From the IMG/VR virus record IMGVR_UViG_3300045256_000753, positions 1-64,000 of that record: a stretch of DNA of 64,000 bases; one strand, written 5' to 3'. This document shows, one piece after another, positions 6,773 through 25,455 of this stretch (position 1 is the first letter of the stretch; every line of letters starts with the position of its first letter). The notes under the pieces were generated by a model, which was not told the DNA's origin, ran no database searches, and saw only the letters and a program-made list of their open reading frames with translations. The DNA comes from a virus. The position numbers and the translations under genes were made by a program.

Positions 6773-8542
6773 CTACACCGCAGGTTCTTCAATCACGTTG
6801 CTTTGGAGGCTCTGGACCAATTCGCGCGTGAAGCTGTTGTTCGAGAAATCCAGGGCTCCGACCGCCGCTTCACCGAGGACCTTATCGATAAGGTCCTTCT
6901 TCTTTTGGAGCAGCTCAAGTGTGTAGTGGTCGATCGTCTTTCGCGACGTTTTCCGTTCGCGCGGGCGTTCCGAGATGATGTGGTACGCGACGACGTGCTG
7001 GTGCGGCGATCCGATACGGATGGGTCGCCCGAGGAGCTGGACGTAGTTGCCCCAGGACCACGGGGCGTCGAAGAAGATCATCGCCGCCGCCGCTTGAAGG
7101 TTGATCGCTTCGCTGCCGGCATCGGTGATGAAGATCACTTGGACGCCCGATTCCATGTCCTGGAAGGCTTCCTTTGCCTTCTGGCGCGCCGGGTTCTTTG
7201 CCGTGTCCACGACGTCCCCGGTGATTGCCACGCTCTTGATGTTGCGATCCTCCAGGATTTTCTGGAGACGCGGAACGAGGCTGGAGAAGCGCGTGTAGAC
7301 GATCGTCTTTTCGCCTTCGAGGTCGCCTTCGAAGAGATCGACCAGCGCTTGTTCTTTCGCACCGAGGCTCTTGACCTCGACGGTCTCGTCTCGGAAGGCG
7401 TCGGTCTCGATTGCGGCGCCGCCTTCGAACTTGAGGAGGGCCAGCGAATTGACGATCTGCTGGCAGTAGATCAGCGCGACGAAGGCCTTGTGCTCTTCGA
7501 AGTCTCGGACCTCGCCATCCCCAAGTTGAAGGACGCCCGTGAGCGCTTCGGAATACTTGATGTCCTCTGCCTGGGACAGCTCGCACGTGATCTCCTTCGT
7601 GATGAGCTTCGGAAGCTCGTCGGAGACCTGATGCTTCGGACGACCGAGGAAGTACGGATCGATGCGTTCGCGGAACTGTTGCAGGTTCTTGTAGCCCACG
7701 ACGATCGGAATCTTTCTCGTCCGGCTAACGGCCTGAAGCTTCGTGACGCAGAAGTCGTTGAGGAATCGCGACTTCGTGGTGAAGACGGTCGGGTGCACGA
7801 CCTTGTAGATGGCGAAGCCCTCGATGAGGTTGTTCTTGAGCAGCGTCGCGGTGAGGCCGTAAACGCGATCGGAACGCACCGACAGAAAGCTGCACACCTG
7901 CCAGGTTTTGGTCCCCGTGTTCTTGAACGCGGTCGCCTCGTCGTAGATCGTGATGAGGTCCTTCTCCTTGTTCGTCAAACGGTCGAGCAGACCCGGCGTC
8001 ACCGGCTTCTTCGGGTCGGGTTGGCCGTTGGGAAGAAGCGGCTGCACTGAGCCCGCGCTCCAATCCTTCACGAGGGAGTGGTAGTTGAGGATGAGGACGG
8101 CCTTGTCCGGTCCTTTATGATTCGACCAGGCGTCGTAGACCTCGGCCCGCTCTTTCGGGTTTCCGGATACGACGTACGTCTTCACGCCGGTCGTGAACTT
8201 GTCGAACTCCGATGCCCATTGGCGGATGGCGCTTTTTGGCGAGACGACGATGACCTTGCGATCCGGGTACTTCTCCCAGAAGTAGCAGAGGGCGCCGATC
8301 ATCTCGACGGTCTTTCCAAGGCCGGTCCCGTCTCCGAGGACCATGCGCTTCACCATGAGGAGGTGAAGGATCCCCTGAACCTGGTAGTACCGAAGACGGA
8401 ACGGCTCAGCCTTGCCGGAGATCCCCACGATCTCGTTCTTGAGCATCGGGGTCGGGCGCAGCGAACACGTCTTCGACTTCCGGATCTCCAGAAGCTTCCC
8501 GTAGATGTTGTCCTGCGGCTTGGTTTCCTGCGGGTCCGGCAT
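6773..8542 (-). CDS. SNF2-family (superfamily 2) helicase/ATPase
   Basis: 589 residues, ATG at 8542. Motifs in order: LRYYQVQGI (Q-like region, about 50), motif I GDGTGLGKT (70-78), motif Ia VIVVSPKSAIRQW (about 97), motif II YDEAT (200-204; DEAH is commoner), motif III GLTATLLKN (229-237), a second RecA domain starting GEKTIVYTRFSSLV, motif V around TDAGSEAINLQ, and motif VI QLLGRPIRIGSPH, matching the Q-x-x-G-R-x-x-R-x-G arginine-finger signature. SNF2-type enzymes move along double-stranded DNA. In phages they are thought to help replication, recombination or clearing of bound proteins. It lies upstream of the loader-like gene with a 16-base gap. Confidence 0.92.
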   Translation of the reverse strand: MPDPQETKPQDNIYGKLLEIRKSKTCSLRPTPMLKNEIVGISGKAEPFRLRYYQVQGILHLLMVKRMVLGDGTGLGKTVEMIGALCYFWEKYPDRKVIVVSPKSAIRQWASEFDKFTTGVKTYVVSGNPKERAEVYDAWSNHKGPDKAVLILNYHSLVKDWSAGSVQPLLPNGQPDPKKPVTPGLLDRLTNKEKDLITIYDEATAFKNTGTKTWQVCSFLSVRSDRVYGLTATLLKNNLIEGFAIYKVVHPTVFTTKSRFLNDFCVTKLQAVSRTRKIPIVVGYKNLQQFRERIDPYFLGRPKHQVSDELPKLITKEITCELSQAEDIKYSEALTGVLQLGDGEVRDFEEHKAFVALIYCQQIVNSLALLKFEGGAAIETDAFRDETVEVKSLGAKEQALVDLFEGDLEGEKTIVYTRFSSLVPRLQKILEDRNIKSVAITGDVVDTAKNPARQKAKEAFQDMESGVQVIFITDAGSEAINLQAAAAMIFFDAPWSWGNYVQLLGRPIRIGSPHQHVVAYHIISERPRERKTSRKTIDHYTLELLQKKKDLIDKVLGEAAVGALDFSNNSFTRELVQSLQSNVIEEPAV

Positions 8543-8568: not shown

Positions 8569-9009
8569 TCAGACCTCGTAGAGCTTGACGTTCCGATCCT
8601 GCGAGGCTTCGTGCGGCTTGCGGCGCTTGATGACGACCGTGTTCTCCGACACGACGCCCAGCATCTTGCGCACGATGGATAGCGCCTTCTCGGCGTCGTA
8701 TTCCTTGCAGGAGAAAGCGTCGAGCGCGAAGTACCGTTGAAGCGGCCACGCGTGCAAGGAGAGGTGGCTCGTCGAGATCACTTGGATCGTCGAGATGCCG
8801 CCCTCGTCTTCGAATTGTCCGGTGAGCTTCACGCGCTCCAAGACGTCCGGATCGACCGGCACTTCGTAGACCTGCACGTCGTCGAGGGGTTTCATGTCGA
8901 GCGCCTTCACGACGTTCTCGAACATCTGAGTCAGCTTCTCACGCGTGAAAACGGATGGATCGGATACACGGGCGTCCATCACAATGTGCAAACCGGCCGA
9001 ACTGGACAT
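8569..9009 (-). CDS. speD-like: SpeD-type pyruvoyl-dependent decarboxylase (S-adenosylmethionine decarboxylase family)
   Basis: 146 residues, ATG at 9009. The family is made as a proenzyme that cuts itself at a serine, turning it into the pyruvoyl cofactor. The site is ISTSHLSLHAWP: Ser81 matches the processing serine, His86 the processing histidine, Ser73 and Cys101 the other two conserved residues. All keep the spacing of the Thermotoga enzyme (positions 55, 63, 68 and 83, offset 18). The usual product is decarboxylated AdoMet for spermidine synthesis. Some SpeD relatives decarboxylate ornithine or arginine instead, and the substrate cannot be settled by eye. No aminopropyltransferase is visible in the window. 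It lies between the replication block and the small-gene cluster. Confidence 0.88.
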   Translation of the reverse strand: MSSSAGLHIVMDARVSDPSVFTREKLTQMFENVVKALDMKPLDDVQVYEVPVDPDVLERVKLTGQFEDEGGISTIQVISTSHLSLHAWPLQRYFALDAFSCKEYDAEKALSIVRKMLGVVSENTVVIKRRKPHEASQDRNVKLYEV

Positions 9010-11914: not shown

Positions 11915-14900
11915 TCAGGTCACCCGGTTGGAAAGGGGAATCGAGTTCGGGTCGATGATCATCCGGATGTTGTCGTTGACGAGCGGGTGACCTTCGATGC
12001 GGTAGAGATCCGCCGCCGCATAGCCCTCGTTGGAACCGTTCGTTCCGATGAAGACGCTGCCGCTGTGCGCCGACGTGTCCTTGAGCATTTGGACAGTCGT
12101 GATGATGAGCATCATCAACTCGCCACCGGCCGAAACCTCCGTCGAGCCGACGTTCGTCACCGCGTTGCGAACGAGGTACGCGCGACCTTCGACGACGTTT
12201 GTGTGACCCGCCGCCGCTTGCACGCTCGGCTGCACGCACCCGACCTCACCGCCCGGGTGGGCGCCGTTGGCCGTGAACGCGGAGCCGCCGCGATTCGTGC
12301 GGAAGTTGACGAGTAGGGCGTAGTTCCCTTGCTCGCCATCGACGTGCACGATTGCATCGCCGGGGGCGCCGCTGGCGGTCGTCGAGGTGTCGAGGAGAAG
12401 CTCGTTCTGCTCGATCGACTTCGTGACCGCGAGGTTGCCCGCGATGCCGATCCCGTTTCCGTTGAGGAAGATGAGCGGGGCTCGCGAGCCTTCGCCCGAT
12501 CCGAGGAGGTTGCCTCGGAAGTCCTTGTCACGGAAGAGCGCACCCATGGGCAGCCGCTCCGTGCACCCGAGGTACTCCGTGCCGATCTCGTTGGCGTCGG
12601 CCGTTGCGAAGTTGCCCGGGAGGGTCTTCGGACGGGGAGCGACACCCGAAACGGGCGGGTACGCTGTCGGATCCTCGTAGCCAACATCTCGGAGGTCGAG
12701 TTGCTGCGTCGGATCCACATCGCCCGCGTAGCGGCCGGTGCCGAGCGTCGTCGCGAACCCAACCGAAGCGAGAACCTCCAGCACCTTCTGGTTCGGGCGC
12801 GTGAGGGCCGATTGGTTGAGGCTCGTCGAGGTGATCTGGAACGCCGTTCCGGAGAGCAGCGGACCAGGCTCGTACGGGATGTCGATGTAGTTCGTCTGGC
12901 TGCCCCACGCATCGCCCTGGTACGGCGTGCGCGAGTAGTTCACGACGATCTGATCGGAGTTCGTAGCCGGGCCCGGAACGACTCCGGTCGGGCCTGTGAT
13001 GACCACTCCGAGGTTGTTCGCACGAACGATGGTGTCTGCGGCCTGGTTGCGCATGAGCGTCGGCGACGTCGGGCGCGTGAGGACGAGACGGAACTCCTTC
13101 GTGATGTCGAAGCTTCCACGGTCGAAGCCGAAGATCGAAGCCTCGATGACGTAGTTGCCCGATGCGAAGGAAGCGATCGGGTTGACCGTCGAGCGCGTGA
13201 GGTCGATGGCTTTCGAGTTCAGGATGAACGTCGAGTCGCCGTCGTCATCGATCTCCACCCACATGACCGGACCATCGGCCGGATCCATGTTCTGCCGGAG
13301 GAGATTCTTCGCGCCGCCGCCCGTGGGGTTGCGGGTCGTGGCGTCGTAGGCCGAACCGTTCACCTTGTAGTCGTTGGCCTCGTACACTGCGAAGAGGCGA
13401 GCGACACCGTAGAACGGCGGAAGCTCCAGACCCGTTCGACCAAGGCCGCGCGAGTCCGTGAAGAACCGCATGCCGCCGTAGTTCTTGCCACCGAAGGTGA
13501 TCTCGGTGTTGTACGTGGCGGGGTTCGTGCCCGGGGGGTTGAAGTCGAGGGTCGTGAATGCGGCGTACGTGAGCGAACCGTTCGCGTACGGCACGTAGTT
13601 CTTGTCCCCATCGGCGAACGGCGGAGCGCCCTTCTTCGAGAGAGACATGTAGTTGACGCCCTCGGAGAAGACCGTGCTGTCGGCCGGCAGGATCGGAACG
13701 TTGAGTTCGCCCCATCCCGGAGAGAGATGGCGCGGCAACGTCACGTAGATGTTCTTCGTCGCGGCTTGCGCTTCCGTCGTGCCCGAGAAGAGTTGGAGCG
13801 GGTCGGTCGTCGTCCACTTGACCGTGGTGCCGTCCGGCTTGTTGAGCGGCATCAGGCCTTGTGCGTGCGCGATGCTGTAGGTGAGGTTCGTCGCCGGCGG
13901 AGCTGCGCCGCCGAAGATCGAGCGTTCGACGGTGAGCGTCGTCACGCCCACGGTGAGCACCGTGTATCGACCCGGAGCGAATCCGTTCGTGATGGTGAGA
14001 GCGTCACCCGGGGTCACGCCGGCCGCGCCGAAGTTGACCGTGGTGTCCGTGAACGTGGTCGAGCCGTTTGCTTGACCTTGGGTACCCGTCATCACGTTTG
14101 CGGTGCGCGGGTTCGCAGCGGTGCCGTCGATCGTACGGATCTCGGTCGGCCACGTCACGCGGCGGAACGGGGTGACGACGAGGGTCTTGCTGCCGAGGTC
14201 GGCAAACATCTCGGAGGTGGAGGGCACGAGACGCTTGTACGTCGTGCTTCGGAAGCGGCTCCAAAGGAGCGCCCAGTTAACGCGGGTCCCTTGGTTGTTC
14301 GAAGGAATGCCCGACGACTGGACGAGAAGCTCCGTCGAGGGGTTGATGAACGCGACCGAGTGGATCGAGTCCGGACGACGCGAGAGACCTCGGCCGGGCC
14401 CGTACATCACGTTGAGGCTGATGAAGAGCTGCTTCGACGTGACCGGGAAGTTCGCACCGAGGGTGATCGTGAGATCGTCGGTCGAAGCGGGGTTGGCCGG
14501 GGTGACCGTGTACATCGTGGACGGGAGCGGCTGGCTCTCGCCATCGAGACGGATCGTCACCGCGCCCGACACGCCATCGTTCAACCAGCGAACCTGATCG
14601 GCGTCGCCGCCCGGGAGACCCGACTTGAGCTGGGCCACCGGAACGACGATGACATCGGTCGGGCTGAATTGGTTGTTGCTCGAACGAACCGTGTGGTTCG
14701 CCGTGAGCTGTAGCGACCACGGGACGTTGATCGGCGCCGGAAGGGCGACTGAGTTCGCTTTCACGATGACATCGACGCTTTGGACGGTCGCTGCATCCGA
14801 GAAGGCGAGGCGAATGTTGTCCGGAGCATCGAGCTTCGTGACGCCGAGCGCGACGGAGCCTGCCGCGATCTTGTCCTGGTACGGAACGAACGGACCCTGG

Positions 14901-16258
14901 GGTCCCGCGCCCGTGCGCTTCCAGTTGGCGCGAAGCTGACCGCGAAGGACGCGATCGAGGTTCTCGCGGAGAAGCGCCGTGTAGTCGAACCCGTTGGGGT
15001 TGACGAGGTGACGAAGATCGAGGACGTCCGTCTTGGCGATCTGGTCGGAATACAGACCATCGGGGCGACCCGAGATGACCTTCACCGTTGCGCCCGCCTT
15101 GTGGAACTCGGCGCGGGTGCCGTTGGTTCCGCGAACGAGGCCCGTGATCATCGGAGGAACGCCGGTCGTGACGGCCGTGTACGTCATCAACTCGTCGCCG
15201 ATCTGAATGAGGACCGGGCTTGCGGGGCTGATGGGGAGCGGGATGTTCAACGCCGAGACGAGCTGTGCCGAAACCGCCACCGACGAAAGGTCGGCTGCGA
15301 GCGTCGCCGTCGTGGAGAACGTCTTGATGCCCGTGCGATCGACTGCCGTGGGGTTGCGGTTGAAGCCGCCGTTGAGGTTCTGGCTGGGATCGCCGTTCCA
15401 GGAGATGCTGTTTCGGCGGAAGACTGCCGCGATCGGGATCGCGTACGAGAACCCATCGACGGTGCCGAGCGCCGCTTGGGCGGTGTTCGAGCCGTCACCC
15501 GCGCGCCAAAGCCCGGCGTCGCCGAGAGCCTGTCGCATGTTGGTGAACGTGTAGCTCGTGGGGGCTCCCGCTGCGCCTTGCGCCTTGACGACGACCGGAT
15601 CGAAGCCGTCCGGGGCGCTCGTGAGGCCGACGAGACCCTTCACGACGCGAATGCGGTACTGGAGTTGGACACGCTCACTCGTCTCGAAGCCGAGAGCCGG
15701 ATCGATCAAGTCATCCGGAATGAACGTGTAGCCGCCTTCGACGTTGCCGTAGCGCCACACGGCGCTGGCTGCCGGCTTGTTGAGCGCGGACGGGTTCGGC
15801 GGGATGCGGGCAAGCCACGCCTCCAAGAACACGTAGTCGATGCGGAAGTCGCCCGAGTTCGCCGGAGGCGGGTCGAGCGCGATGACGTTGTATGTGTCCG
15901 CGTCGTCGGGGCTGCCGGGCGGGGTGCCCGTGCGCGTGCCAGTGACCGGAATCAGCCACCCGTTGACCACGGCCCACATGACAGCTTTTTGCTCACCCGT
16001 GCGCTGCGGGCCGAACTTCATCCAGTTCGACCAGATCGGGCTCGTGATGAAGTCCGCGCTCGGATTTGTCTCGTTGCCGAGAAAACCCGAGGGGCTTCCA
16101 CGAAGCACGATGCGACGGGAGAAATCCGTCGCCAGCTCTTGCAGGAGGTTGAACTCCGCATCCAACGGGGGCTTTCCCTGCTGGAGGATTGTGAGCGTGT
16201 ATGCTGTCCCGTTGGGGTCGAGGACGCGGGAGACGCCACTACCGAGATTCTCACCCAT
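11915..16258 (-). CDS. Giant tail fibre/adhesin-type structural protein (1447 aa)
   Basis: Mostly beta-structured, Gly/Thr/Asn-rich, as in distal tail and fibre proteins. The N-terminal 400 residues are related to the protein at 25455-28055: both carry a Q-x-G-K-P-x-L-D-x-E-x-N-L motif near residue 30, RVQ-QYR-RV, LGTVDGF-YAIP-AVFRRN and DGL-D-L-DLR. Residues about 320-395 contain a TYTAVTTG...ITGLVRGTNGT segment typical of phage beta-modules. Around residues 730-795 is one copy of the GV-x2-GD module shared by other tail proteins here. It sits next to the divergent lipoprotein island, and its leader resembles that of the 19482-23195 gene. Probably receptor binding or tail-end structure (inference). 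Confidence 0.85.
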   Translation of the reverse strand: MGENLGSGVSRVLDPNGTAYTLTILQQGKPPLDAEFNLLQELATDFSRRIVLRGSPSGFLGNETNPSADFITSPIWSNWMKFGPQRTGEQKAVMWAVVNGWLIPVTGTRTGTPPGSPDDADTYNVIALDPPPANSGDFRIDYVFLEAWLARIPPNPSALNKPAASAVWRYGNVEGGYTFIPDDLIDPALGFETSERVQLQYRIRVVKGLVGLTSAPDGFDPVVVKAQGAAGAPTSYTFTNMRQALGDAGLWRAGDGSNTAQAALGTVDGFSYAIPIAAVFRRNSISWNGDPSQNLNGGFNRNPTAVDRTGIKTFSTTATLAADLSSVAVSAQLVSALNIPLPISPASPVLIQIGDELMTYTAVTTGVPPMITGLVRGTNGTRAEFHKAGATVKVISGRPDGLYSDQIAKTDVLDLRHLVNPNGFDYTALLRENLDRVLRGQLRANWKRTGAGPQGPFVPYQDKIAAGSVALGVTKLDAPDNIRLAFSDAATVQSVDVIVKANSVALPAPINVPWSLQLTANHTVRSSNNQFSPTDVIVVPVAQLKSGLPGGDADQVRWLNDGVSGAVTIRLDGESQPLPSTMYTVTPANPASTDDLTITLGANFPVTSKQLFISLNVMYGPGRGLSRRPDSIHSVAFINPSTELLVQSSGIPSNNQGTRVNWALLWSRFRSTTYKRLVPSTSEMFADLGSKTLVVTPFRRVTWPTEIRTIDGTAANPRTANVMTGTQGQANGSTTFTDTTVNFGAAGVTPGDALTITNGFAPGRYTVLTVGVTTLTVERSIFGGAAPPATNLTYSIAHAQGLMPLNKPDGTTVKWTTTDPLQLFSGTTEAQAATKNIYVTLPRHLSPGWGELNVPILPADSTVFSEGVNYMSLSKKGAPPFADGDKNYVPYANGSLTYAAFTTLDFNPPGTNPATYNTEITFGGKNYGGMRFFTDSRGLGRTGLELPPFYGVARLFAVYEANDYKVNGSAYDATTRNPTGGGAKNLLRQNMDPADGPVMWVEIDDDGDSTFILNSKAIDLTRSTVNPIASFASGNYVIEASIFGFDRGSFDITKEFRLVLTRPTSPTLMRNQAADTIVRANNLGVVITGPTGVVPGPATNSDQIVVNYSRTPYQGDAWGSQTNYIDIPYEPGPLLSGTAFQITSTSLNQSALTRPNQKVLEVLASVGFATTLGTGRYAGDVDPTQQLDLRDVGYEDPTAYPPVSGVAPRPKTLPGNFATADANEIGTEYLGCTERLPMGALFRDKDFRGNLLGSGEGSRAPLIFLNGNGIGIAGNLAVTKSIEQNELLLDTSTTASGAPGDAIVHVDGEQGNYALLVNFRTNRGGSAFTANGAHPGGEVGCVQPSVQAAAGHTNVVEGRAYLVRNAVTNVGSTEVSAGGELMMLIITTVQMLKDTSAHSGSVFIGTNGSNEGYAAADLYRIEGHPLVNDNIRMIIDPNSIPLSNRVT

Positions 16259-16326
16259 GTGATCTACATCCCTCGTCCTCGCCCGCTTATCAGTGTTTTA
16301 GAGAGGGTCGGGGTGTAAGAGCGCCC
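16259..16326. promoter_or_regulatory. Divergent intergenic region
   Basis: 68 bases between a minus-strand gene starting at 16258 and a plus-strand ORF at 16327, so promoters in both directions or a break in transcription are expected here. I see no convincing sigma70-like -35/-10 pair. The minus-strand end, AGGGATGTAGATCAC before the ATG, closely matches AGGGATTAAGATCAC before the ATG at 23195. Confidence 0.35.
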
Positions 16327-16647
16327 ATGGCGACGAGTAGCTGGTCCGAGGCAGGTCACCGGGTTTGCGCGGTTTTTTGTGGAACCGTGATCACCTTCAC
16401 GTGCGAGGCGCGGCTTCTCATCATTGAAAATGGCAGCACGCACTGGCAAACATGGCCGCTCTCGCAGTTGACGATCGGCGGCCCTTTCACGAATTCAGAG
16501 CGTCTGATTCGTACCTGGCTGGGTTTTTACCAGGACCCGCAGCTTCAGGATGCCGGCGCCGGCCTTCTCCAATTGATCCTGGGCAGCATCCCGGAAGCGC
16601 GCCCGCCGCAGCCTCCCCCGCCACCATCGAGCAAAAACCCGAACTAG
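16327..16647 (+). CDS. Small hypothetical protein
   Basis: 106 residues from the ATG at 16327; the open frame extends further upstream but would overlap the divergent gene. The body (CAVFCGTVITFTCEARLLII, then THWQTWPLSQLTIGGPFTN) looks like a compact beta domain, followed by a short helix and a Pro-rich tail (PPQPPPPPSS). The ribosome binding site is weak. First gene of the plus-strand island. Its stop TAG shares the palindrome CTAG with the stop of the small minus-strand ORF at 16644-16739. Family not recognised. Confidence 0.55.
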   Translation: MATSSWSEAGHRVCAVFCGTVITFTCEARLLIIENGSTHWQTWPLSQLTIGGPFTNSERLIRTWLGFYQDPQLQDAGAGLLQLILGSIPEARPPQPPPPPSSKNPN

Positions 16648-16739
16648 GGGCCCCACTTCGACGGAAACGTCTTCGAAGCGATGATCGTGACCACGGTGAG
16701 GAGGCCCACCAATAGGATCGTGGGTAGCGTGCTCAACAT
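16644..16739 (-). CDS. Possible 31-residue membrane peptide
   Basis: Starts MLSTLPTILLVGLLTVVTII and ends with a Lys- and Pro-containing hydrophilic tail (ASKTFPSKWGP). This is one clean transmembrane segment with a positively charged end. AAGGG lies about 8 bases before the ATG. It is antisense to nothing but the last bases of the plus-strand gene, and the two stops interlock in CTAG. Small single-pass peptides are common in phage morons and lysis units. Existence rests on the ribosome binding site and hydrophobicity only. Confidence 0.4.
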   Translation of the reverse strand: MLSTLPTILLVGLLTVVTIIASKTFPSKWGP

Positions 16740-16880
16740 GGCCCAGACCCTTTCGCTTGCCGGTGACAGTCCCTAGTACACCCGGCAAACTGTAAGAAAA
16801 CCAAGCATGTAGGACATGTAGGTACAACTCATCTGTAGAAAAACGATTTGATCCGTGTCACCCTCGCCTGTATGGGGGAC
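16740..16880. promoter_or_regulatory. AT-richer intergenic region before the lipoprotein, with inverted and tandem repeats
   Basis: 141 bases, noticeably richer in A/T than the flanks, fitting a promoter region for the lipoprotein (plus) and the small peptide (minus). It contains an inverted repeat TTGCCGG (16757-16763) / CCGGCAA (16782-16788) and a tandem 9-mer CATGTAGGA/CATGTAGGT (16806-16823) that could be a protein-binding site. No strong -35/-10 pair was found. Confidence 0.4.
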
Positions 16881-18146
16881 ATGAAGACGCAAGTTTTTGC
16901 AATTTTCGCGTTCGTTTCGGTCGCCCTGACTGGCCTCACCGGCTGCGTGACCGACGTTCTTCCCTACCAGACGGCGCCGGATAGCGGCGACCCGACCAAG
17001 GATTCGGGCAATGCCCCGGATGTTGGGGAGGGTGGTATGGGAGCCGATTCCGCTGACGGTGGAATGGGGTCCGACACCGGCATGGGTCAGGACGGCTCGA
17101 TGGGCCAGGACGGGTCATCGACCGATGGCTCGATGGGCCAAGACAGTGGGACGGACTCCGGCATGGGTTGCGACGGTGGCAACCTGATGTGCGGTAACGT
17201 CTGCGTCGATTCGCTGACCGACAACAACAACTGCGGCGGTTGCGGGATCGCGTGCGGCGGTGGAGACACGTGCAACGCTGGCTACTGCACGCAAACGCTG
17301 GTCTTCGAGGCAACGAATCAGCTCGCGCTCTCGCTCAGCGGCAACAACGTCTACTTCTCGAACTCGGCGAACAAAGTCGAGAAGTGCGGAAAGAATGGAT
17401 GCGGCAATCAGCCGACCGTCCTCTCCACGAACCAGAACAACCCGACAAGCCTCGCGACGGATTCGACCGACGCCTACTGGACGAACTACCAAGGCGGATC
17501 GCTTTCGACTGTTCCTCTTGGGGGTGGCTCGACGACGAACCTGGCTACGAACCAGATGCAGCCGTACAGCGTCGCGGTCGATGCGAACGGCGTCTACCTG
17601 TACTGGGCAGAATCGATCTTCAACGGCACCGTCAAGAGGTGCTTGGCGGCCAACTGCGCGAACACGACGACGGCTCTGGCGACGGGCACTCAGGCGAGCG
17701 CCATCTCCGTCGATTCGACCAATGTTTACTGGTATGACTTCGCGGCGAAGCGGATTCTGAAATGCGCCGTTGGGGGTTGCAGCGGCAATCCAACCATCCT
17801 CGTCAACAATCAGAGTTCGACGAACTACACGTTCACGGACGGCTCGAATCTCTACTGGGCTTCGCTCACGTCGGTCTACAAGTGCGCGACTAACGGATGC
17901 GGCGGAAATCCGACCGTCTTGGCTTCGAATCAGAACGCCAACGCGATTGCTGTCGTCTCGGACGGCACGAACGCCTACTGGACCGACAAGGGTGGCACGG
18001 TGCAAAAGTGCGCCCTCAACAACTGCGCGAACACGATCACTCTGCTCGCGGTGAATCAGAACCAGCCGTACGCCATCGCGGTCGATTCGCAGCACGTCTT
18101 CTGGACGAACTACGCGGGCGGCCAGATCATGCGGGCCCCCAAATGA
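16881..18146 (+). CDS. Myxobacterial-type lipoprotein with beta-propeller repeats
   Basis: 421 residues from the ATG at 16881, chosen because GGGGG precedes it and the protein then opens with a lipoprotein signal (MKTQVFAIFAFVSVALTGLTGC; lipobox LTGC, lipidated Cys22). Next come a Gly/Met/Asp/Ser linker with repeated MGQDGS units, a Cys-rich module (CGNVCVDSLTDNNNCGGCG), and about six propeller-like repeats of 42-45 residues built on Y-W-T-N/D, K-C-x3-G/N-C, P-T-x-L-A-x-N-Q and I-A-V-D. This layout is characteristic of secreted lipoproteins of Myxococcota and is not a phage structural fold. It was probably acquired from a host. It is on the opposite strand to the tail genes and could alter the infected cell's surface. 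Confidence 0.9.
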   Translation: MKTQVFAIFAFVSVALTGLTGCVTDVLPYQTAPDSGDPTKDSGNAPDVGEGGMGADSADGGMGSDTGMGQDGSMGQDGSSTDGSMGQDSGTDSGMGCDGGNLMCGNVCVDSLTDNNNCGGCGIACGGGDTCNAGYCTQTLVFEATNQLALSLSGNNVYFSNSANKVEKCGKNGCGNQPTVLSTNQNNPTSLATDSTDAYWTNYQGGSLSTVPLGGGSTTNLATNQMQPYSVAVDANGVYLYWAESIFNGTVKRCLAANCANTTTALATGTQASAISVDSTNVYWYDFAAKRILKCAVGGCSGNPTILVNNQSSTNYTFTDGSNLYWASLTSVYKCATNGCGGNPTVLASNQNANAIAVVSDGTNAYWTDKGGTVQKCALNNCANTITLLAVNQNQPYAIAVDSQHVFWTNYAGGQIMRAPK

Positions 18147-18307
18147 ACCCGGCCCTCAAACGTGGACGCGTTGTCTACGATTCCTGGTGGCCCTGGCGAG
18201 TTGGCAGCATTACCAAGCGAAACAAGTCGTCTGTGTACGTGCAGTGGTCGGACGGCAAGACGTGGCGATACGACCGAGCCCACACCCAATTCCTGAGGAC
18301 CCGATGA
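18143..18307 (+). CDS. Small SH3/Tudor-like beta-barrel protein
   Basis: 54 residues. The ATG at 18143 overlaps the lipoprotein stop as ATGA, so translation is coupled. The sequence GRVVYDSWWPWRVGSITKR, then VYVQWSDGKTWRYD resembles the five-strand SH3/KOW-like folds found in small phage proteins that bind nucleic acid or partner proteins. The fold call is from pattern alone. Confidence 0.6.
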   Translation: MNPALKRGRVVYDSWWPWRVGSITKRNKSSVYVQWSDGKTWRYDRAHTQFLRTR

Positions 18308-18483
18308 TCGACAGACCTTACCGACCGACTCTTTTTGAAATCATCCTCGGGCGTCACGCCTACAGCATGGAGCCCGAGGAGGAGACGGCATGGTGTAGAG
18401 CGTTTCTCGTTATGGGTTTCGTCGCCGGCATCCTCTTCTGCGGACTCGTCAGCGACTTCATGGGACGGTTGCTCCATGGGTAA
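18304..18483 (+). CDS. Small single-pass membrane protein
   Basis: 59 residues, ATG at 18304 overlapping the previous stop as ATGA. After a charged N-terminal half (MEPEEETAWCRAF) there is one transmembrane segment, FLVMGFVAGILFCGLVSDFMG. It lies in the lipoprotein island between two other small genes. Unknown function. A membrane-sited moron product is plausible. Confidence 0.6.
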   Translation: MIDRPYRPTLFEIILGRHAYSMEPEEETAWCRAFLVMGFVAGILFCGLVSDFMGRLLHG

Positions 18484-18766
18484 GCTAAAATGGCGCACCC
18501 GAAGAGGAAACGCGATCTCGGCGCCTCTGTCGTACGCTGGAGACTTCGTGATCTCTCACCGCCACGAATGGCATACGGCTTCATACCGTCCTCCGGGCAA
18601 GCACGTCCACCTCGGGGTATTCCTCACGAAGAAAGCCGCACGTGAATTTTGCGAGTCTCTGGATGTCACCACGATAGAGATCGTCGGCGAAGGATTCACC
18701 CAGTTCCTTCGTGACCACCAGCGTCTCCACGCGGAGCGGGTCGCGGCCGGAATCTCGCCGCGTTGA
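18476..18766 (+). CDS. Small hypothetical protein, weakly AP2-like
   Basis: 96 residues, ATG at 18476, overlapping the previous gene by 8 bases; the start lies in GGTTGCTCCATGG with a poor ribosome binding site, so coupling is likely. The segment SYRPPGKHVHLGVFLTKKAA followed by REFCESL recalls the core of AP2-type DNA-binding domains found in phage proteins (K-x-H-L-G-x-F-x-T-x2-E/K-A-A). The match is short and uncertain. Last gene of the plus-strand island, followed by two hairpins. Confidence 0.6.
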   Translation: MGKLKWRTRRGNAISAPLSYAGDFVISHRHEWHTASYRPPGKHVHLGVFLTKKAAREFCESLDVTTIEIVGEGFTQFLRDHQRLHAERVAAGISPR

Positions 18767-18770
18767 CCGT

Positions 18771-18800
18771 TATACGTAGAGACGAACGAACCTACGTATA
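18771..18800. terminator. Hairpin after the plus-strand island
   Basis: Perfect 9-bp inverted repeat TATACGTAG / CTACGTATA with a 12-base loop, 4 bases after the stop at 18766. The stem is A/T-rich and lacks a T-run. Sited between converging genes, it may act in both directions. Confidence 0.45.
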
Positions 18801-18802
18801 GT

Positions 18803-18836
18803 TTGCCGATCTGCGTCGATTTGCTCAGATCGGCAA
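18803..18836. terminator. Second hairpin between converging genes
   Basis: Perfect 11-bp inverted repeat TTGCCGATCTG / CAGATCGGCAA with a 12-base loop, 7 bases before the stop of the minus-strand gene at 18844. Flanked by TT on one side and AA on the other, it resembles a weak bidirectional terminator for both transcription units. Confidence 0.55.
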
Positions 18837-18843
18837 GGACCGT

Positions 18844-19470
18844 TCAGTAGATCACAGCCCACGAACCGAGCCAGAGGCGGTTCGCAGAGGCGTTCGTGAG
18901 CCGGATGATGAAGTTCGTTCCCTGGCCGAGCCCAGGGATGTTCGTGACACCCCCATCGAGCGCGCTGTTGAACGTCACGCCCCCATCACAAGAGACGGAG
19001 CATGTAATGTTCAAGGGAGAGGACGCGACCTCGGCATACGTGCGCTGGTAACGATCCGTTTTGGCATCGGAGGCCGTGTACTGGAAGGTCTCCCACGTCA
19101 CGATGACGGCTGGCGGGGCGCCCGGGGTCAGACCGATGACGTTCGATTGCAGAACCCCGCCCGGGAAGAGCGAGATCGAGCCGCGTTCACCGAGCGTGAT
19201 ACCCGAGGAGTTCGCCGCGTCGATGCCCGAGGCGTTCACGAGATCGTCGAACGTGATTCGTGTGAAGCCAGCGTAGAAGGCAAGCAGCCCCGTGTATTTC
19301 TGCGTGATGAGGTTCGAGAAGCTTGAGGGACGAACGACCTGGACGCCATCCGGCACGCGAACGACGAAGCAACCATTCGTGAGCGACTGGAAGTTCGTCG
19401 GGTCGCGAACATCGATGAGGGCGGAGTTCGCCAAGATCGCGTTGTGCAGGTCAACGAGGTAGTGAGCCAT
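18844..19470 (-). CDS. Tail-region structural protein (208 aa)
   Basis: ATG at 19470 with GGAGATG upstream, 12 bases after the beta-helix gene. A helical N-terminus (MAHYLVDLHNAILANSALI) is followed by beta-rich sequence ending RLTNASANRLWLGSWAVIY. No known domain was found. Downstream of the beta-helix spike and last gene before the convergent hairpins, so a small fibre tip, chaperone or capping protein is possible, by position only. Confidence 0.72.
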   Translation of the reverse strand: MAHYLVDLHNAILANSALIDVRDPTNFQSLTNGCFVVRVPDGVQVVRPSSFSNLITQKYTGLLAFYAGFTRITFDDLVNASGIDAANSSGITLGERGSISLFPGGVLQSNVIGLTPGAPPAVIVTWETFQYTASDAKTDRYQRTYAEVASSPLNITCSVSCDGGVTFNSALDGGVTNIPGLGQGTNFIIRLTNASANRLWLGSWAVIY

Positions 19471-19481
19471 TTACATCTCCA

Positions 19482-22400
19482 TCATGTCGCGAAGATCGCC
19501 GTGTTGAACAGCATCGTCCCACCGTTCGCGTAGAGACGAGTGTCGGCGCCAGCGCCAACCGTCTGCCAACCACGCAAGTTGTAGGTAAGGTTCGCGTTCG
19601 GCGAGACGAACGCGCCGGTTCCCGACACTTGCATTTGACCGAGCGTGCCGAGAAGATCCGTGTTGTTGTTCATGGCCACCGACACGATTCCGCCGACGCG
19701 GCTGATCGTGTGGCAGTCGATCTTGATTTGCACGTTGGCGGCTGCACCGTTGTTGCCGGCTGCCGTGTTGTTGAGCAACCAGACACATCCGAGCCAAGAC
19801 TCGCCACCGGCATTGTCCGTCTCGACAAGGATGCCTTCCTGCGTGCAAGACCGAATGACGTTCTGCTCGATGGTGATGCCGTCCTCATCGATGATGTGCC
19901 CGGACACCCAGATGCCGCGCCCCAAGCCTCCGGAACCGAGGGAGTAGAAACGGCAGCGGCGAATGTAGAGGCCGGAGATGTTGAGCGACGTTGATGCGAG
20001 GATTCCGCCACGCAAAGACGAACCGGCCAAGTCTTCGATCTCGACACCGATGATGTTGCCCGACACGGCGTTGAGAAACAGGGCGTAATAACCGCCGACT
20101 GCGCCACCGCCGTTGAGGAAGCCGTGGACGCGCCCGCCAGAGAAGACGACATGGCGGTTGTCGTTCGACTCCCAGTTGAGCATGCAGATGATGCTGTCCA
20201 CGGCCCACGCGCCGCCGCCCGCCGTCTGACCATCCATTTGGATGTTGCGGATACGTCCACCGGAGTGAAATCCGTTGCCGTACCCCGAGAAGAGGAGGCG
20301 GTGGATCGGTGTGGAGCCCGTTCCGCCGTCCGAAAACGACGAGAGCTGGAGGTCATCGACATCGATGTCTTGCGTGCGAATCGAGATGTCGCCTGCGGTG
20401 GAGAGCTGCTTGAAGCCCGTGCCCTTGATCTTCTTTGCGGTCACCTTGTCGGCAAGGATGTTGACCGTTCCGTAGAAGAAGACGGACGGGGGTGCGCCGC
20501 CACCCGTGTACCAGAACGCGGTGTCGTCCGGGATCAAACAACCGGGCTGTGCGGCAGTCGGCACCATGGTGAACACGACATCATTCAACTCGAAGTGCTT
20601 GGCGCCCTGAGCGACGTTGAACGGCGTGAGCTGGTTCGGCGGAATCGGGTCACCGAGCTGGCAGATGATGCGCGAGTTTCGGATGACGAAGTGTTGGACT
20701 TGGAGGTACGGCCCCACGCCCGCCCCGTTCACCCCGTTGCCCGAAGGCGTGAGGTGGAGGATGACGTTGACGAAGCCGGAGGGCACGTTCGGATTCGGCG
20801 TCGAGATGATGCAGTTCTCGAAGACGACATCCTGAATCGTTGCGCCGTTGCCCGTTCGAGCGTCCTGGGCGTTCGGGTCGAGATCCACGATGCCCGTGTT
20901 CTGCGCGAGCACGCCGTTCGTGAAACCACCGGGGGTTGCCGTGGTGGTCTGGTTGAGAACGAACTTGCTGCGGCTGACGTGGATGCCTTCGATGGTTCCG
21001 ATTGCGCCAGCCAGAGCGCGGATTCGAATCGCAGGGACCGTGAAGCCCATCGAGAACGAGCACTCGTCCACGAAGACGCGCTTGCAGTCGGTCGTTCCAC
21101 CGCCCTCGATCGTGATTGCCGCGTCGTTTGCCGTGCCATCGAAGAGGCATCGGGTGAAGACGCTCGGGGCGTCGTCTCCGGAAAGCGACGACAGGATCAC
21201 GTTGTCGAACGAGCAGTCTTGGGCGATCACTCGGCCGCTGTCCGATGCGCGAACCGAGTAGACGCCGGCGGCGCCGTTCGAGATGACGTGAATGCCCTTG
21301 AGATACAGCGTGTTGCCGCTGTGGACGTACATCGAGTCGATGGCCGCAGCCGGAGCGGAGAGAGTCGAGCCCGAGCCACCCTGCCCGGAGCCGTAGCCCT
21401 CGATCGTGAGGAAGCCGGGCCCGAACGCGCCGAGGTTGATCGTCGCGTTCATCGAGTGGAAGCCGCGCTTGAGGAAGATCGTGGCCGAGTTGATGTTCAG
21501 GCCTGCCGATTGGATGCAGGCCATCGCTGCGTTGATGGCGTTCGTTCCGTTGAAGTCGCCGAACGAGTTCGTTCCGTCGCCGATCGAGCAGTAGAACCGA
21601 CCGTTGAGGTTTTTGAGAAGCTGCTCGGCCACCGGGACAACCGATCCGCCCGTGGACATCGTTCCGGTACCGCCCGTGCACCCCGTGAAGGTCGTGCTCG
21701 TCGTGCCCGTGTAGGTCACGAACTGCGGGCCCGCCGACGTGTTGACGATGAGCGATCCCGTGGCTGGGAACTTGGCCGTGCTCGCGACGTTGATGGTACC
21801 AGTCGGGAGAGAGACGCCGTTCGAGCCGGCTGCGATCGTTGTCGTGAACTGACCCCAGCCCTTGTCGAAGATGCGAACGATCTTCGCGCCATCCGCTGTC
21901 GTCGTGGACGAGAAGCGCATGAACTTGCCGCCGTTGTTGCCGGCGTTCGCAACCGTCTGCGCGTCGTAGAAGGCGAGGATGTCATCGGAGCCGATCGACG
22001 AGCCGTTCTGCGTCGTCGGGCTGAAGGTACCCGTGCTCCATCCGATGCCATCGAAGTAGAGCTTCGAGCCTGCGGATGCCACGATGTCCGTGCCGCGCGT
22101 CGCGTAGAGCAAACGTGCGGAGCCCTTGGTCAGGGTCGAATCGACGGCCCAGAAAACCGCGTAGAGATTGAGACGGCCCGTGACGCCGTTGACGCCACCG
22201 ACAACCTTGATGTTGCCGCCGATCTTCGGGGCACACGAGAAGCGAATGACGCCGGCCTTGTAGTCGATCGTCAGGCGTTGATCGCCGGGGGCGATGGCCG
22301 GATCGATGACCGGGTTGAGCGACGTGATCGGCTGCGTGAGATCCGGTCCGGTTCCGAGACCGTTGTCCGGATAGAGGACGACGCGGTACCCGAGCTTGTC

Positions 22401-23195
22401 GAGCGAGGTCCGGGGCGCCGGGGCATCGAATACCGAGTCGGCACGATCCACGGTCGAATCGAGGCCGTAGGCGGACGGAACGAGGCTCTTGACGCGATCG
22501 GCGTTGATCTGATCGACGGTCGGGGCGACGTTGCTGTGGAGCGTCGAGCCCGGAATGACCGCGAGGAATGTTTGCTCCTGGCCAGTCGGACCGGAGCCCG
22601 GGACCGCGAAGAGCTGCACCGCCAGGGGACGGACGATGACGTACGGGTAGAGATCCGCCGCAACGTTGAATTGGTTTGTCGGTGCGGAGACCCTGTGGAT
22701 GTTGGTGCACGTGAGGGTCGTCGCGCCAACGACCGAGATCGTGCCGACGAGGTTGGCGTTCGCGCTGCTCGTCGGGCCGTTCCGAACGAGGAGGAGGTCA
22801 CCTGCTTGGACGCCAGCAACGATGAAGCTTGCCGTCGAGTCGGTGAACTGGTTGACGGCAGTGCCGGCACCCTGAGTTCCGCTCACGATGTGCGTCGGGC
22901 CGTACCACTTGGCCGTATCGGCCGTGAGGTCCGAGGTCTGCGTCAACGTGCCGATGTACTTGCCCGGCTGGGTCGGAGGCGTCTGGCTGTAGACGTCATC
23001 GAGGAGGACGTTTGGTCCAGTGAGATAGGGCTCGGCATTGATGTCGCCCTTTCCGACGACACCTTCCGGAGGCAAAGCGGAATCGCCAACCGTGAGAGCC
23101 TTGCTGCCCGCAAAGAAGTCCGCTTTGCGGAGCTGTTCCAGCTCCAGACGGGTGAGGTTCGAGTACGAACCAGTCGGCGTGAAAGACGCTGCCAT
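19482..23195 (-). CDS. Tail spike/fibre with right-handed beta-helix (1237 aa)
   Basis: The N-terminal 150 residues contain one GV-x2-GD module (about residues 113-170). Around residues 450-500 is a beta-module ending FVTYTGTTSTTFTGCTGGTG. From about residue 520 the chain becomes a parallel beta-helix of the pectate-lyase type: FLKRGFHSMNATINLGAFG, LTIEGYGSGQGGSGSTL, then many short turns of the form I-x-G-x-x-I-x2-C-x-F/I and repeated R-N-S-R-I, E-N-C-I-I, R-R-C-R-F. Such folds in phage spikes bind or cut surface polysaccharide. No catalytic triad can be assigned by eye. The leader shares AGGGATTAAGATCAC with the 1447-residue gene. Confidence 0.85.
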   Translation of the reverse strand: MAASFTPTGSYSNLTRLELEQLRKADFFAGSKALTVGDSALPPEGVVGKGDINAEPYLTGPNVLLDDVYSQTPPTQPGKYIGTLTQTSDLTADTAKWYGPTHIVSGTQGAGTAVNQFTDSTASFIVAGVQAGDLLLVRNGPTSSANANLVGTISVVGATTLTCTNIHRVSAPTNQFNVAADLYPYVIVRPLAVQLFAVPGSGPTGQEQTFLAVIPGSTLHSNVAPTVDQINADRVKSLVPSAYGLDSTVDRADSVFDAPAPRTSLDKLGYRVVLYPDNGLGTGPDLTQPITSLNPVIDPAIAPGDQRLTIDYKAGVIRFSCAPKIGGNIKVVGGVNGVTGRLNLYAVFWAVDSTLTKGSARLLYATRGTDIVASAGSKLYFDGIGWSTGTFSPTTQNGSSIGSDDILAFYDAQTVANAGNNGGKFMRFSSTTTADGAKIVRIFDKGWGQFTTTIAAGSNGVSLPTGTINVASTAKFPATGSLIVNTSAGPQFVTYTGTTSTTFTGCTGGTGTMSTGGSVVPVAEQLLKNLNGRFYCSIGDGTNSFGDFNGTNAINAAMACIQSAGLNINSATIFLKRGFHSMNATINLGAFGPGFLTIEGYGSGQGGSGSTLSAPAAAIDSMYVHSGNTLYLKGIHVISNGAAGVYSVRASDSGRVIAQDCSFDNVILSSLSGDDAPSVFTRCLFDGTANDAAITIEGGGTTDCKRVFVDECSFSMGFTVPAIRIRALAGAIGTIEGIHVSRSKFVLNQTTTATPGGFTNGVLAQNTGIVDLDPNAQDARTGNGATIQDVVFENCIISTPNPNVPSGFVNVILHLTPSGNGVNGAGVGPYLQVQHFVIRNSRIICQLGDPIPPNQLTPFNVAQGAKHFELNDVVFTMVPTAAQPGCLIPDDTAFWYTGGGAPPSVFFYGTVNILADKVTAKKIKGTGFKQLSTAGDISIRTQDIDVDDLQLSSFSDGGTGSTPIHRLLFSGYGNGFHSGGRIRNIQMDGQTAGGGAWAVDSIICMLNWESNDNRHVVFSGGRVHGFLNGGGAVGGYYALFLNAVSGNIIGVEIEDLAGSSLRGGILASTSLNISGLYIRRCRFYSLGSGGLGRGIWVSGHIIDEDGITIEQNVIRSCTQEGILVETDNAGGESWLGCVWLLNNTAAGNNGAAANVQIKIDCHTISRVGGIVSVAMNNNTDLLGTLGQMQVSGTGAFVSPNANLTYNLRGWQTVGAGADTRLYANGGTMLFNTAIFAT

Positions 23196-23250: not shown

Positions 23251-25455
23251 TCACGGCGGGAGCCACTCCAGCTCGTCGATGGTGAGCGCCGTGCCCGCGC
23301 CATTGATGAGCGACACACGCACGAAGAGGAGGAAGTTGCCCGAACCGTTGTTCGAAGTGAATGCCGTCGTGTTGAACGTGACGAACACGTCCGGACCCAC
23401 CGTCGTGATGCCCGTGGCGCAACCATAGAAGTCGGTTGTCGCGATGCCGGGGTCACCGTACGCACGGCCGAGGTCGAGCCAACCGGTTCCGCCACCGCCC
23501 GGGACCTTGAGCTGGATGATGGCACCCCCAACGAGGTGGCCCGTGGTTTCCGTGCCGTTGTATGCGGCGTTCGTCTGGATCGCCGCGTAGGCGAGACCAC
23601 GAATGCGAAGCTTGCCGGTGTTGCGCGGAACGCCCGTGTCGAAGGCACGCTGGTAGCGCCGGAGGTGGTTGGCACCGTCGCCGGCCGGGAAGCCCGAGTA
23701 GTCCGGCTGGCCCACCGGACGGTATGCCGCCGCGCCGTAGTTCACTTGGGGGTAAGCGAGAACGTTTCCGACCTCTTGGAGGTCCGGTCCCGTCACCAAC
23801 AAGGCGGCGTTCGAGGCGTAGATGTTGCCGCCACCCGGAACGATCGGAACGGCAGCCGAAGTGGTCGGATCGAAGCTGAGCGCGTAGCGGTACTTCTCGT
23901 CCACGAACGGTTCGAGCGTGGTCGTCGAAGCCGTGCCGCCACCCGACTGCGGGTAGGAGTTGAAGAGGTAGCGCGTCGTGTCCAAGAACTGGACGGCCGC
24001 GTTGAAGGGATCCTTCAGATCGGCACGGAGAAGACCGTAGCCGTTCGCGGGGCTTGCGGGGCCGGCACCCGGGATCGCCAACGCAGCGTTGATGTACTGC
24101 GCGATGTCCGCTGCCTGCGGCGAGTTGATGTTGCTGTAGTTGCCGACGATCGTGGCCTTCCGCAGGTCGGAGTACGGAACCAGCGTGGTCGTGCCGCCGA
24201 ACGCGTTGAAGTTCAGGACCATCGGATCGTTGGCCGATTGGAACTGGTTCGGAACGAGCGGCGGGTTGGCGACCGATCCCGTATCGAAGCTGTTGCTGAA
24301 CAGGTCGCTCGCGCGGATGTCCACGTTCCAGTGAAGCGGCGTGCCGCCGTTGTCGTAGAACTGGACGCCCGAGAGGAAGACCGTCGTCGGAACTGCAACC
24401 TGTGCAGAGGAGAACAACGTCCCCGCCGGCGACGTGCCGGATCCAGCATCGCGGAAGACGTGGTGACGGTTGACGTTGTAGACCGGCGTCGTGTTGTCGT
24501 CGAAGTTGCCTCCGGCCGGAACCGCCGAGTAGCACTTGCTGGCCACGAGGTTGCCGATCGTGAGGTTCGCCGGCTGGATCGAGGCGAGCGTCGTCGCGTA
24601 CGTCTCTTTCCAGTGGACGACGAGGTAGTTCTGCGCGTCGCCGGCCGCGAGGGCCTGCGTGAGGAGCGAGAACACGGCGAGCTGGTAGCGGTAGAAGTTG
24701 ATCGAGAACGGTCCGTACGGTGTGCCGGGGTACGCCGTGTAGTTCGACAGATACGGAAGACGGAACGTCAGACCGAACTGATCGAGGCCGACGCCGGAGG
24801 CGACGTAGTTCGCCTGCTGGACTTTGCGGTTCGCTTCAACGAAGTTGGCACCAGGGATGCCGCCCGGAGGTGGGTTGCTTCCGAGGTAGAGCGCAGCGAC
24901 GAGGGTCGTGGCACCGGCGTTGAAGAAGTTGCCGTCCGTGTTCTTGTAGAACGCGACCACGCCGCGATCGGCCGGGAAGAGAAGGCCGCTCATCGCGAAG
25001 TTCGCGGTGCCGTTCGGAACGAGGAAGTGGCTGAATTCGACGTTCGCGCCGTTGGGGTAGCCACCCGTTCGAGACGTGCCGGACCCGATACCGAAGGCAT
25101 CGAGCAACCCCCAAGACGGGATGCCCGAGCTGATACCCTCGGGGAGGTTGAAGCCGATCGAATTCGGACGAACGGGGATGAGGTCCTTGAACTCGTCGAT
25201 GAAGTCGAGGACGCTCTCGCCATCGATCACGCCGCCCACGCTTGTGAGGAGCGCCTCTCCGGTCGGTGGGTAGAACGGGTTGATGCCGATGGCGCTCGCC
25301 ATGTGTGCGTCGATCGGATCGGTGATGTGCGCTTGCAAGGCGGCGTTCGAGCCCCCGCCAGGCGGGAAGAGAAGAGCGCCGGCCGGAACGACACCGGCAG
25401 AGAGCCGGCCCGGTCCCGGGTTGACAACGACGGTGGGGTCTTTGGTGGACGGCAT
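23251..25455 (-). CDS. Tail fibre-region structural protein (734 aa)
   Basis: ATG at 25455 overlaps the previous stop as TGATG. The N-terminus has DPIDAHMASAIGI, which recalls the D-A-H-x-A-x-A-I/S segment seen in many phage and exosporium structural proteins. The remainder is Gly/Asn/Tyr-rich beta sequence with few charged stretches. No enzymatic motif is visible. The coupling with the 866-residue protein suggests that both are built into the same distal tail structure. Function beyond 'structural' is not determinable. Confidence 0.8.
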   Translation of the reverse strand: MPSTKDPTVVVNPGPGRLSAGVVPAGALLFPPGGGSNAALQAHITDPIDAHMASAIGINPFYPPTGEALLTSVGGVIDGESVLDFIDEFKDLIPVRPNSIGFNLPEGISSGIPSWGLLDAFGIGSGTSRTGGYPNGANVEFSHFLVPNGTANFAMSGLLFPADRGVVAFYKNTDGNFFNAGATTLVAALYLGSNPPPGGIPGANFVEANRKVQQANYVASGVGLDQFGLTFRLPYLSNYTAYPGTPYGPFSINFYRYQLAVFSLLTQALAAGDAQNYLVVHWKETYATTLASIQPANLTIGNLVASKCYSAVPAGGNFDDNTTPVYNVNRHHVFRDAGSGTSPAGTLFSSAQVAVPTTVFLSGVQFYDNGGTPLHWNVDIRASDLFSNSFDTGSVANPPLVPNQFQSANDPMVLNFNAFGGTTTLVPYSDLRKATIVGNYSNINSPQAADIAQYINAALAIPGAGPASPANGYGLLRADLKDPFNAAVQFLDTTRYLFNSYPQSGGGTASTTTLEPFVDEKYRYALSFDPTTSAAVPIVPGGGNIYASNAALLVTGPDLQEVGNVLAYPQVNYGAAAYRPVGQPDYSGFPAGDGANHLRRYQRAFDTGVPRNTGKLRIRGLAYAAIQTNAAYNGTETTGHLVGGAIIQLKVPGGGGTGWLDLGRAYGDPGIATTDFYGCATGITTVGPDVFVTFNTTAFTSNNGSGNFLLFVRVSLINGAGTALTIDELEWLPP

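Follow-up and report, generated by a model that had tools for sequence, protein, structure and literature searches.

Lipoprotein genes carried by phages as morons are of a kind already known. In T5 and BF23 the llp gene lies beside the gene for the receptor-binding protein, and the Llp lipoproteins of the two phages, although mutually non-homologous, each block the receptor of the cell under infection (PMC4728585, PMC9586334). The locus described here resembles that setting, in that the gene for the lipoprotein P0001 adjoins tail-fibre-like genes much as the llp gene adjoins receptor-binding genes (PMC4728585). The resemblance is nevertheless one of setting and not of homology: Llp is small, and its location in T5 is the periplasm (PMC9586334), whereas P0001 is a large Cys-rich propeller of different architecture.

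A second point of comparison is offered by the Cys-rich propeller lipoproteins of Myxococcota, such as the protein L172 and a set of Minicystis rosea paralogues, in which lipobox, linker, Cys module and propeller follow one another in the same order as in P0001. These lipoproteins are chromosomal and multi-copy, whereas the gene considered here is phage-borne, lies antisense in a tail region and has the codon use of the phage. The genes that border it, finally, are related to gp420 and gp421 of Bacillus phage G and to the tail modules of LR745208.1 and Tunturiibacter phage Tunturi_5, although in none of these three phages does the corresponding slot hold a propeller lipoprotein.

The phage and the slot between its tail genes

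The window, the whole 64,000-nucleotide stretch analysed, runs from position 1 to 64000 of a virus record of 101,637 bases, which is itself a fragment of a larger phage genome. In this record a simple gene caller finds some 80 genes, of which almost all are encoded on the minus strand; in one gene call, 15 minus-strand genes are followed by a plus-strand island at 16327-18766 and then by 61 more minus-strand genes, which leaves the island as the only substantial plus-strand unit on the fragment. The sequence-only reading had drawn the island with these limits, as a self-contained plus-strand unit within a minus-strand tail region, and the gene calls confirm it on both counts.

To the left of the island lies g14 (11915-16258, minus), which encodes a 1447-aa tail (fibre) protein with counterparts in huge phages, and to the right g20 (18844-19470, minus), which encodes a 208-aa tail protein with counterparts in the relatives and with phage G gp421 as its best fold match. 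Counterparts of g14 that are 53-65% identical occur in 14 IMG/VR contigs, the largest of 412 kb, equivalent to about ten distinct phages once near-copies are removed; among named phages, relatives are present in LR745208.1 (485 kb), in Bacillus phage G (gp420) and in Tunturi_5 (a tail fibre protein). This kinship of the border genes places the window in the huge contractile phage group, contractility following from a tail-sheath relationship, so that, judged by its genes, the source is a huge contractile-tailed phage. The view that this is phage DNA from a tail region is thereby borne out. A search of 360 Myxococcota and 200 Pseudomonadota genomes, run without a positive control, gave no g14 counterpart; from the result for these 560 genomes we rejected a prophage or host-contig origin, and, the relatives being huge phages as well, the role in a lysogen that had earlier been entertained appears unlikely. 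Downstream of the tail genes, and likewise on the minus strand, are genes for a DnaB-like helicase (4412-5878) and a SNF2-type helicase (6773-8542).

In the relatives the two border genes nearly touch. The distance between g20 and g14 is 31-64 bp in L193/L196, L194/L195 and L200/L201, the corresponding genes of LR745208.1 are 14 bp apart, and phage G gp421 directly abuts gp420 (0 bp). It follows that the two genes were adjacent ancestrally and that 2,585 bp have since been inserted between them in the window. Other relatives carry in this slot an AdoMet decarboxylase, a GIY-YIG endonuclease, small proteins or a protein with a signal-like N terminus, a diversity that marks the slot as a cargo hotspot. 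Homologous proteins of 579-781 aa, hydrophobic over a stretch at the N terminus and containing Gly-rich linkers, occupy the slot before g14 at L190:7062-9011, L197:7529-9874 and L198:8069-9808; the L190 protein, the one of the three that was scanned, has no Pfam or NCBIfam match. The window itself has an AdoMet decarboxylase gene at 8569-8925 (minus; PF02675, 4e-15), and a second type of the enzyme is encoded beside g20 in several relatives (L188:5825-6316; TIGR03330, 1e-36); by these matches polyamine synthesis is a recurrent cargo of these phages. Tunturi_5 encodes, close to its tail fibre, a protein annotated as "lipoprotein precursor" (gp251); it is without a propeller, by eye resembles RlpA, and was not counted.

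Beyond g20 lie two genes that probably encode adhesins, g21 (19482-23195, minus; 1237 aa), probably a variable one, and g22 (23251-25455, minus; 734 aa). For g21 no counterpart is present in any relative locus; of g22, only the first 27-57 residues are conserved in five distinct relatives, and it aligns over its full length only in L193/L196, at 41%. Such absence of counterparts, and such conservation mostly at the N terminus, is the pattern expected of variable adhesins.

The island itself is preceded by an intergenic stretch (16259-16326) from which g14 (minus) and the island (plus) start in opposite directions, a possible divergent promoter region in which no sigma-70-like site rises above chance. 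The first open frame of the island (16327-16647, plus; 106 aa) is a doubtful gene, with no homologue and atypical codon use. A leader at 16748-16880 (plus), upstream of the lipoprotein gene, has the A/T-richer composition that had been claimed for the island (GC 0.46 at 16800-16899 vs 0.61 overall) and may hold a promoter, although none was recognised in it. The lipoprotein gene (16881-18146, plus; 421 aa), an open frame with homologues, has alternative starts at ATG 16872 and TTG 16848. Three short frames follow on the plus strand: one of 54 aa (18143-18307), whose start shares an ATGA (18143-18146) with the lipoprotein stop; one of 59 aa with a single hydrophobic stretch (18304-18483), overlapping the 54-aa stop in the same way (ATGA, 18304-18307); and one of 96 aa (18476-18766), which overlaps the 59-aa frame by 8 nt. 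The overlaps that chain these last four frames suggest an operon. None of the four small frames of the island has a confident family match or a match in related phages, the 54- and 59-aa frames are without homologue, no counterpart of the 96-aa frame was found in viral contigs, and three of the four (106, 59 and 96 aa) show atypical codon use.

Between the converging 3' ends, two perfect hairpins at 18771-18800 (9-bp arms) and 18803-18836 (11-bp arms) part the island from g20, with z = -2.7 on one strand and -3.1 on the other. They had been described as closing the island; both are present, but neither has a T run and intrinsic-terminator scoring did not pick them up.

Architecture of the lipoprotein P0001

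The signal peptide and lipobox (LTG, then C22) occupy 16881-16946 (plus), with LTGC at residues 19-22 after a hydrophobic stretch, the sequence signature of a bacterial lipoprotein; lipidation is accordingly a prediction. Among Myxococcus xanthus lipoproteins, Lys at +2 is common in the inner membrane and Ala at +7 in the matrix (PMC3222651). P0001 has Val at +2 and Pro at +7, which makes the outer membrane the default guess for its location.

An Asp/Ser/Gly-rich linker (residues 23-95; 16947-17165, plus), predicted to be disordered (pLDDT <50), leads to a Cys module (residues 96-137; 17166-17291, plus) with the sequence CGNVCVDSLTDNNNCGGCGIAC. The module matches Stig1 (E 6e-4) and the MXAN_6577-like family NF041328, the latter at 34.6 bits (E 1.6e-8) against a curated cut-off of 100 bits, so that by sequence P0001 has a related module and is not a member of that Cys-rich family. 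The Cys-module pattern is matched at 17190-17245, where chance would yield no match.

The rest of the protein is a beta-propeller (residues 139-420; 17295-18140, plus) of seven YWTD-like repeats, several of which contain CxxxxC pairs. It matches PDB propellers at about 1e-9, with Pizza6 and LRP6 chains among those matched by sequence, and in the AlphaFold2 model, built from a 17-sequence alignment, the propeller has pLDDT mostly >90. Foldseek groups it with YWTD propellers and, at TM 0.80 by target length, with virginiamycin B lyase. The confident model and the repeat sequence together identify a YWTD-type beta-propeller, and the layout of lipobox, Cys module and propeller first read from the sequence is real by NF041328, Stig1, PDB propellers and AlphaFold2 alike. 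The likeness to LRP6, the designed Pizza6 and virginiamycin B lyase is one of propeller fold only, their functions being unrelated.

Origin and recurrence in related huge phages

The closest relative found is L172, a 414-aa Myxococcota lipoprotein (genome G362; E 8e-56), 34-36% identical over residues 9-421. That the nearest relatives would be in Myxococcota had been predicted, and P0001 is closer to L172 than to its counterpart in the phage G402 (29%). At E<=1e-10, homologues occur in 10 of 141 Myxococcota genomes, in none of 150 from Pseudomonadota and in one of 151 from Chloroflexota; Minicystis rosea alone gives 13 matches, and the organisms named in the Cys-module pattern scan are mostly Myxococcota or "Deltaproteobacteria". 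The full-length homology to L172 puts P0001 in an informal group of Myxococcota lipoproteins with Cys module and propeller. Among INPHARED phages there is no relative at E<=0.01.

The sequence-only reading had also predicted a codon use different from that of the flanking genes, and here it failed. Ranked among those genes of the phage that encode 200 aa or more, the lipoprotein gene falls at the 47th percentile for GC, the 55th for GC3 and the 49th for synonymous codon fit, which disposes of a codon-use contrast as proof of transfer and implies that the gene is fully ameliorated and any transfer old. Two features of a moron are therefore to be told apart: the island is inserted, in a separate orientation, between genes that are adjacent in relatives, but its composition is not unlike that of the phage (49th percentile codon fit). 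Foreign composition is not essential to the definition where acquisition is old. The homology is most simply read as transfer from a Myxococcota host; acquisition from the host, as originally proposed, is thus favoured by descent and gains nothing from composition. The Myxococcota-type gene likewise points to a host in that phylum, and it is from this gene solely that the assignment is drawn, so that the claim stands as a pointer and not as an independent demonstration.

A phage-borne lipoprotein of this type is no single oddity. Lipobox scans, run on loci and on entire records, turned up a single Cys-rich propeller lipoprotein in each of G390 (208 kb), G391 (412 kb), G402 (363 kb) and the window record, "single" referring to the propeller type, as other, smaller lipobox candidates are present in some records. 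In each of the four the gene runs against the direction of the tail genes and lies no more than about 6 kb from g14. A structural block of 127 genes in G402 has no other antisense gene, and the lipoprotein gene is identical in G402 and G403, two assemblies. The G390 and G391 lipoproteins are full-length homologues (41%) in phages of 59% and 44% GC; they form the only supported pair in a tree of the phage lipoproteins that otherwise has little resolution, so that one transfer or several would fit it.

Five of the nine scanned relatives are without a propeller lipoprotein gene, from which it follows that the protein is dispensable. The stricter scan found none in G392, in the first 400 kb of G397, or in G398, G399 and G400, absences that are less certain because these records were scanned whole with that filter only, and it also missed G390 and G391, which have short signal peptides. 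In these negative relatives the looser scan of the g14 loci again found none, and there is none among the antisense genes within 40 kb of g14; a direct protein search agrees but carries little weight, as it had missed G390 and G391 as well.

Several further matches were set aside. The L346 match is probably host chromosome DNA and was left out of the count, and many Cys-module pattern matches in viral contigs are other things, either long Cys-repeat proteins or short lipoproteins, possibly in host context. The contigs L006, L009, L016, L024, L028 and L035 (68-189 kb) encode very long proteins with dozens of the same Cys module. The more distant phages G404 and G405 encode, on the sense strand, lipoproteins that join this module to kelch-like repeats (L004:9656-11107 and L025:2403-4145; 37% identical). 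As many as 53 tRNA-like genes are present in G402 (L222-L240; two odd calls) and 36 in G391 (L248-L268).

With respect to expression, the 6-mer of greatest strand asymmetry in front of genes in G390, G391, G392, G397, G398, G399 and G402 (loci L211-L333) is YGGTGTA, most of whose 433 sites lie 10-19 nt ahead of the start codon. It precedes 17-26% of genes outside the structural block vs 8-13% inside, and 4 of 76 genes in the window record, and is a candidate phage promoter or leader element. The exact motif stands upstream of the lipoprotein gene in one of the four phages, G391.

Possible roles of the propeller lipoprotein

The genomic facts are firm; the function of the lipoprotein is what we infer from them. 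The propeller lipoprotein probably alters the surface of the infected cell, perhaps excluding rival viruses, and the original suggestion of such an alteration is judged plausible. More specifically, P0001 may protect the infection by receptor blocking or as a decoy, that is, by superinfection exclusion, a proposal that we consider quite possible while stopping short of calling it probable. The gene would be transcribed separately from the late tail genes, and its product would take the host's lipoprotein export pathway and come to be exposed in the outer envelope of the infected cell, where it would bind and block the envelope component recognised by the phage's tail fibres or, alternatively, imitate it and so act as a decoy, both for incoming virions and for those bound to debris. 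Its position beside receptor-binding tail genes would allow mask and adhesin to be exchanged together, as with llp beside oad or hrs. The architecture, the empty site in relatives, the recurrence in four phages, the variable neighbours g21 and g22, the kinship to Myxococcota and the Llp precedent all speak for exclusion; against it stand the different build of the known Llp, the absence of an exact YGGTGTA, as a possible mark of early expression, from three of the four genes, the dispensability of the gene in five of nine relatives and the unrelated cargo that the g20/g14 slot also takes.

A rather unlikely alternative has the protein change a surface function of the host, such as signalling, contact, outer-membrane exchange or nutrient or prey binding, and not block phages. 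In Minicystis rosea the same Cys module and propeller form the C-terminal part of a Ser/Thr kinase (L151:805-2466), a fusion which suggests that the module probably binds or senses something outside the cytoplasm, and L172 and the G402 protein show weak matches to SinM, a signal-integration protein. Myxobacteria, moreover, pass outer-membrane lipoproteins between cells (PMC4488436). Such a role leaves the neighbourhood of tail-fibre genes in four phages unexplained, though a general cargo hotspot would account for it.

Exclusion might also take the form of receptor mimicry, in which myxobacterial huge phages would repeatedly have captured relatives of the very propeller lipoproteins that their fibres bind, using them as decoys or masks and swapping them with their adhesins. 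We think this unlikely, but if it were true, the captured gene would name the receptor family of the phage.

It is more doubtful still that the lipoprotein landed at random in the g20/g14 hotspot as a passenger with no selected role. The diverse cargo of the slot (AdoMet decarboxylase, GIY-YIG endonuclease, secreted protein) and the several relatives that lack the lipoprotein would fit, but the intact frame with its ameliorated codon use would not, nor would the same protein type in the same orientation at slightly different places in four phages, or the retention of the full-length G390/G391 pair across phages of such different GC. A place in the virion, as an adhesin on the tail or a helper of fibre assembly, is very improbable: the gene does lie among tail genes, and phage structural proteins do include propeller folds, but P0001 has an N-terminal signal peptide with lipobox, is encoded on the strand opposite the tail operon, and has bacterial lipoproteins as its nearest relatives. 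An assembly chimera or host contamination is scarcely credible, for although host DNA may occur in IMG/VR contigs, as the L346 match illustrates, the codon use matches the phage, the flanks are syntenic, and comparable genes occur in independent assemblies, identically in G402 and G403.

Huge phages of uncultured hosts usually come without a clue to host or receptor. In the open-access literature searched on huge phages, we found no description of a Myxococcota-type lipoprotein beside the tail-fibre genes. Its recurrence at that position offers a pointer to the host phylum and, in the propeller lipoprotein, a candidate agent of superinfection exclusion or of surface alteration that can be put to the test.
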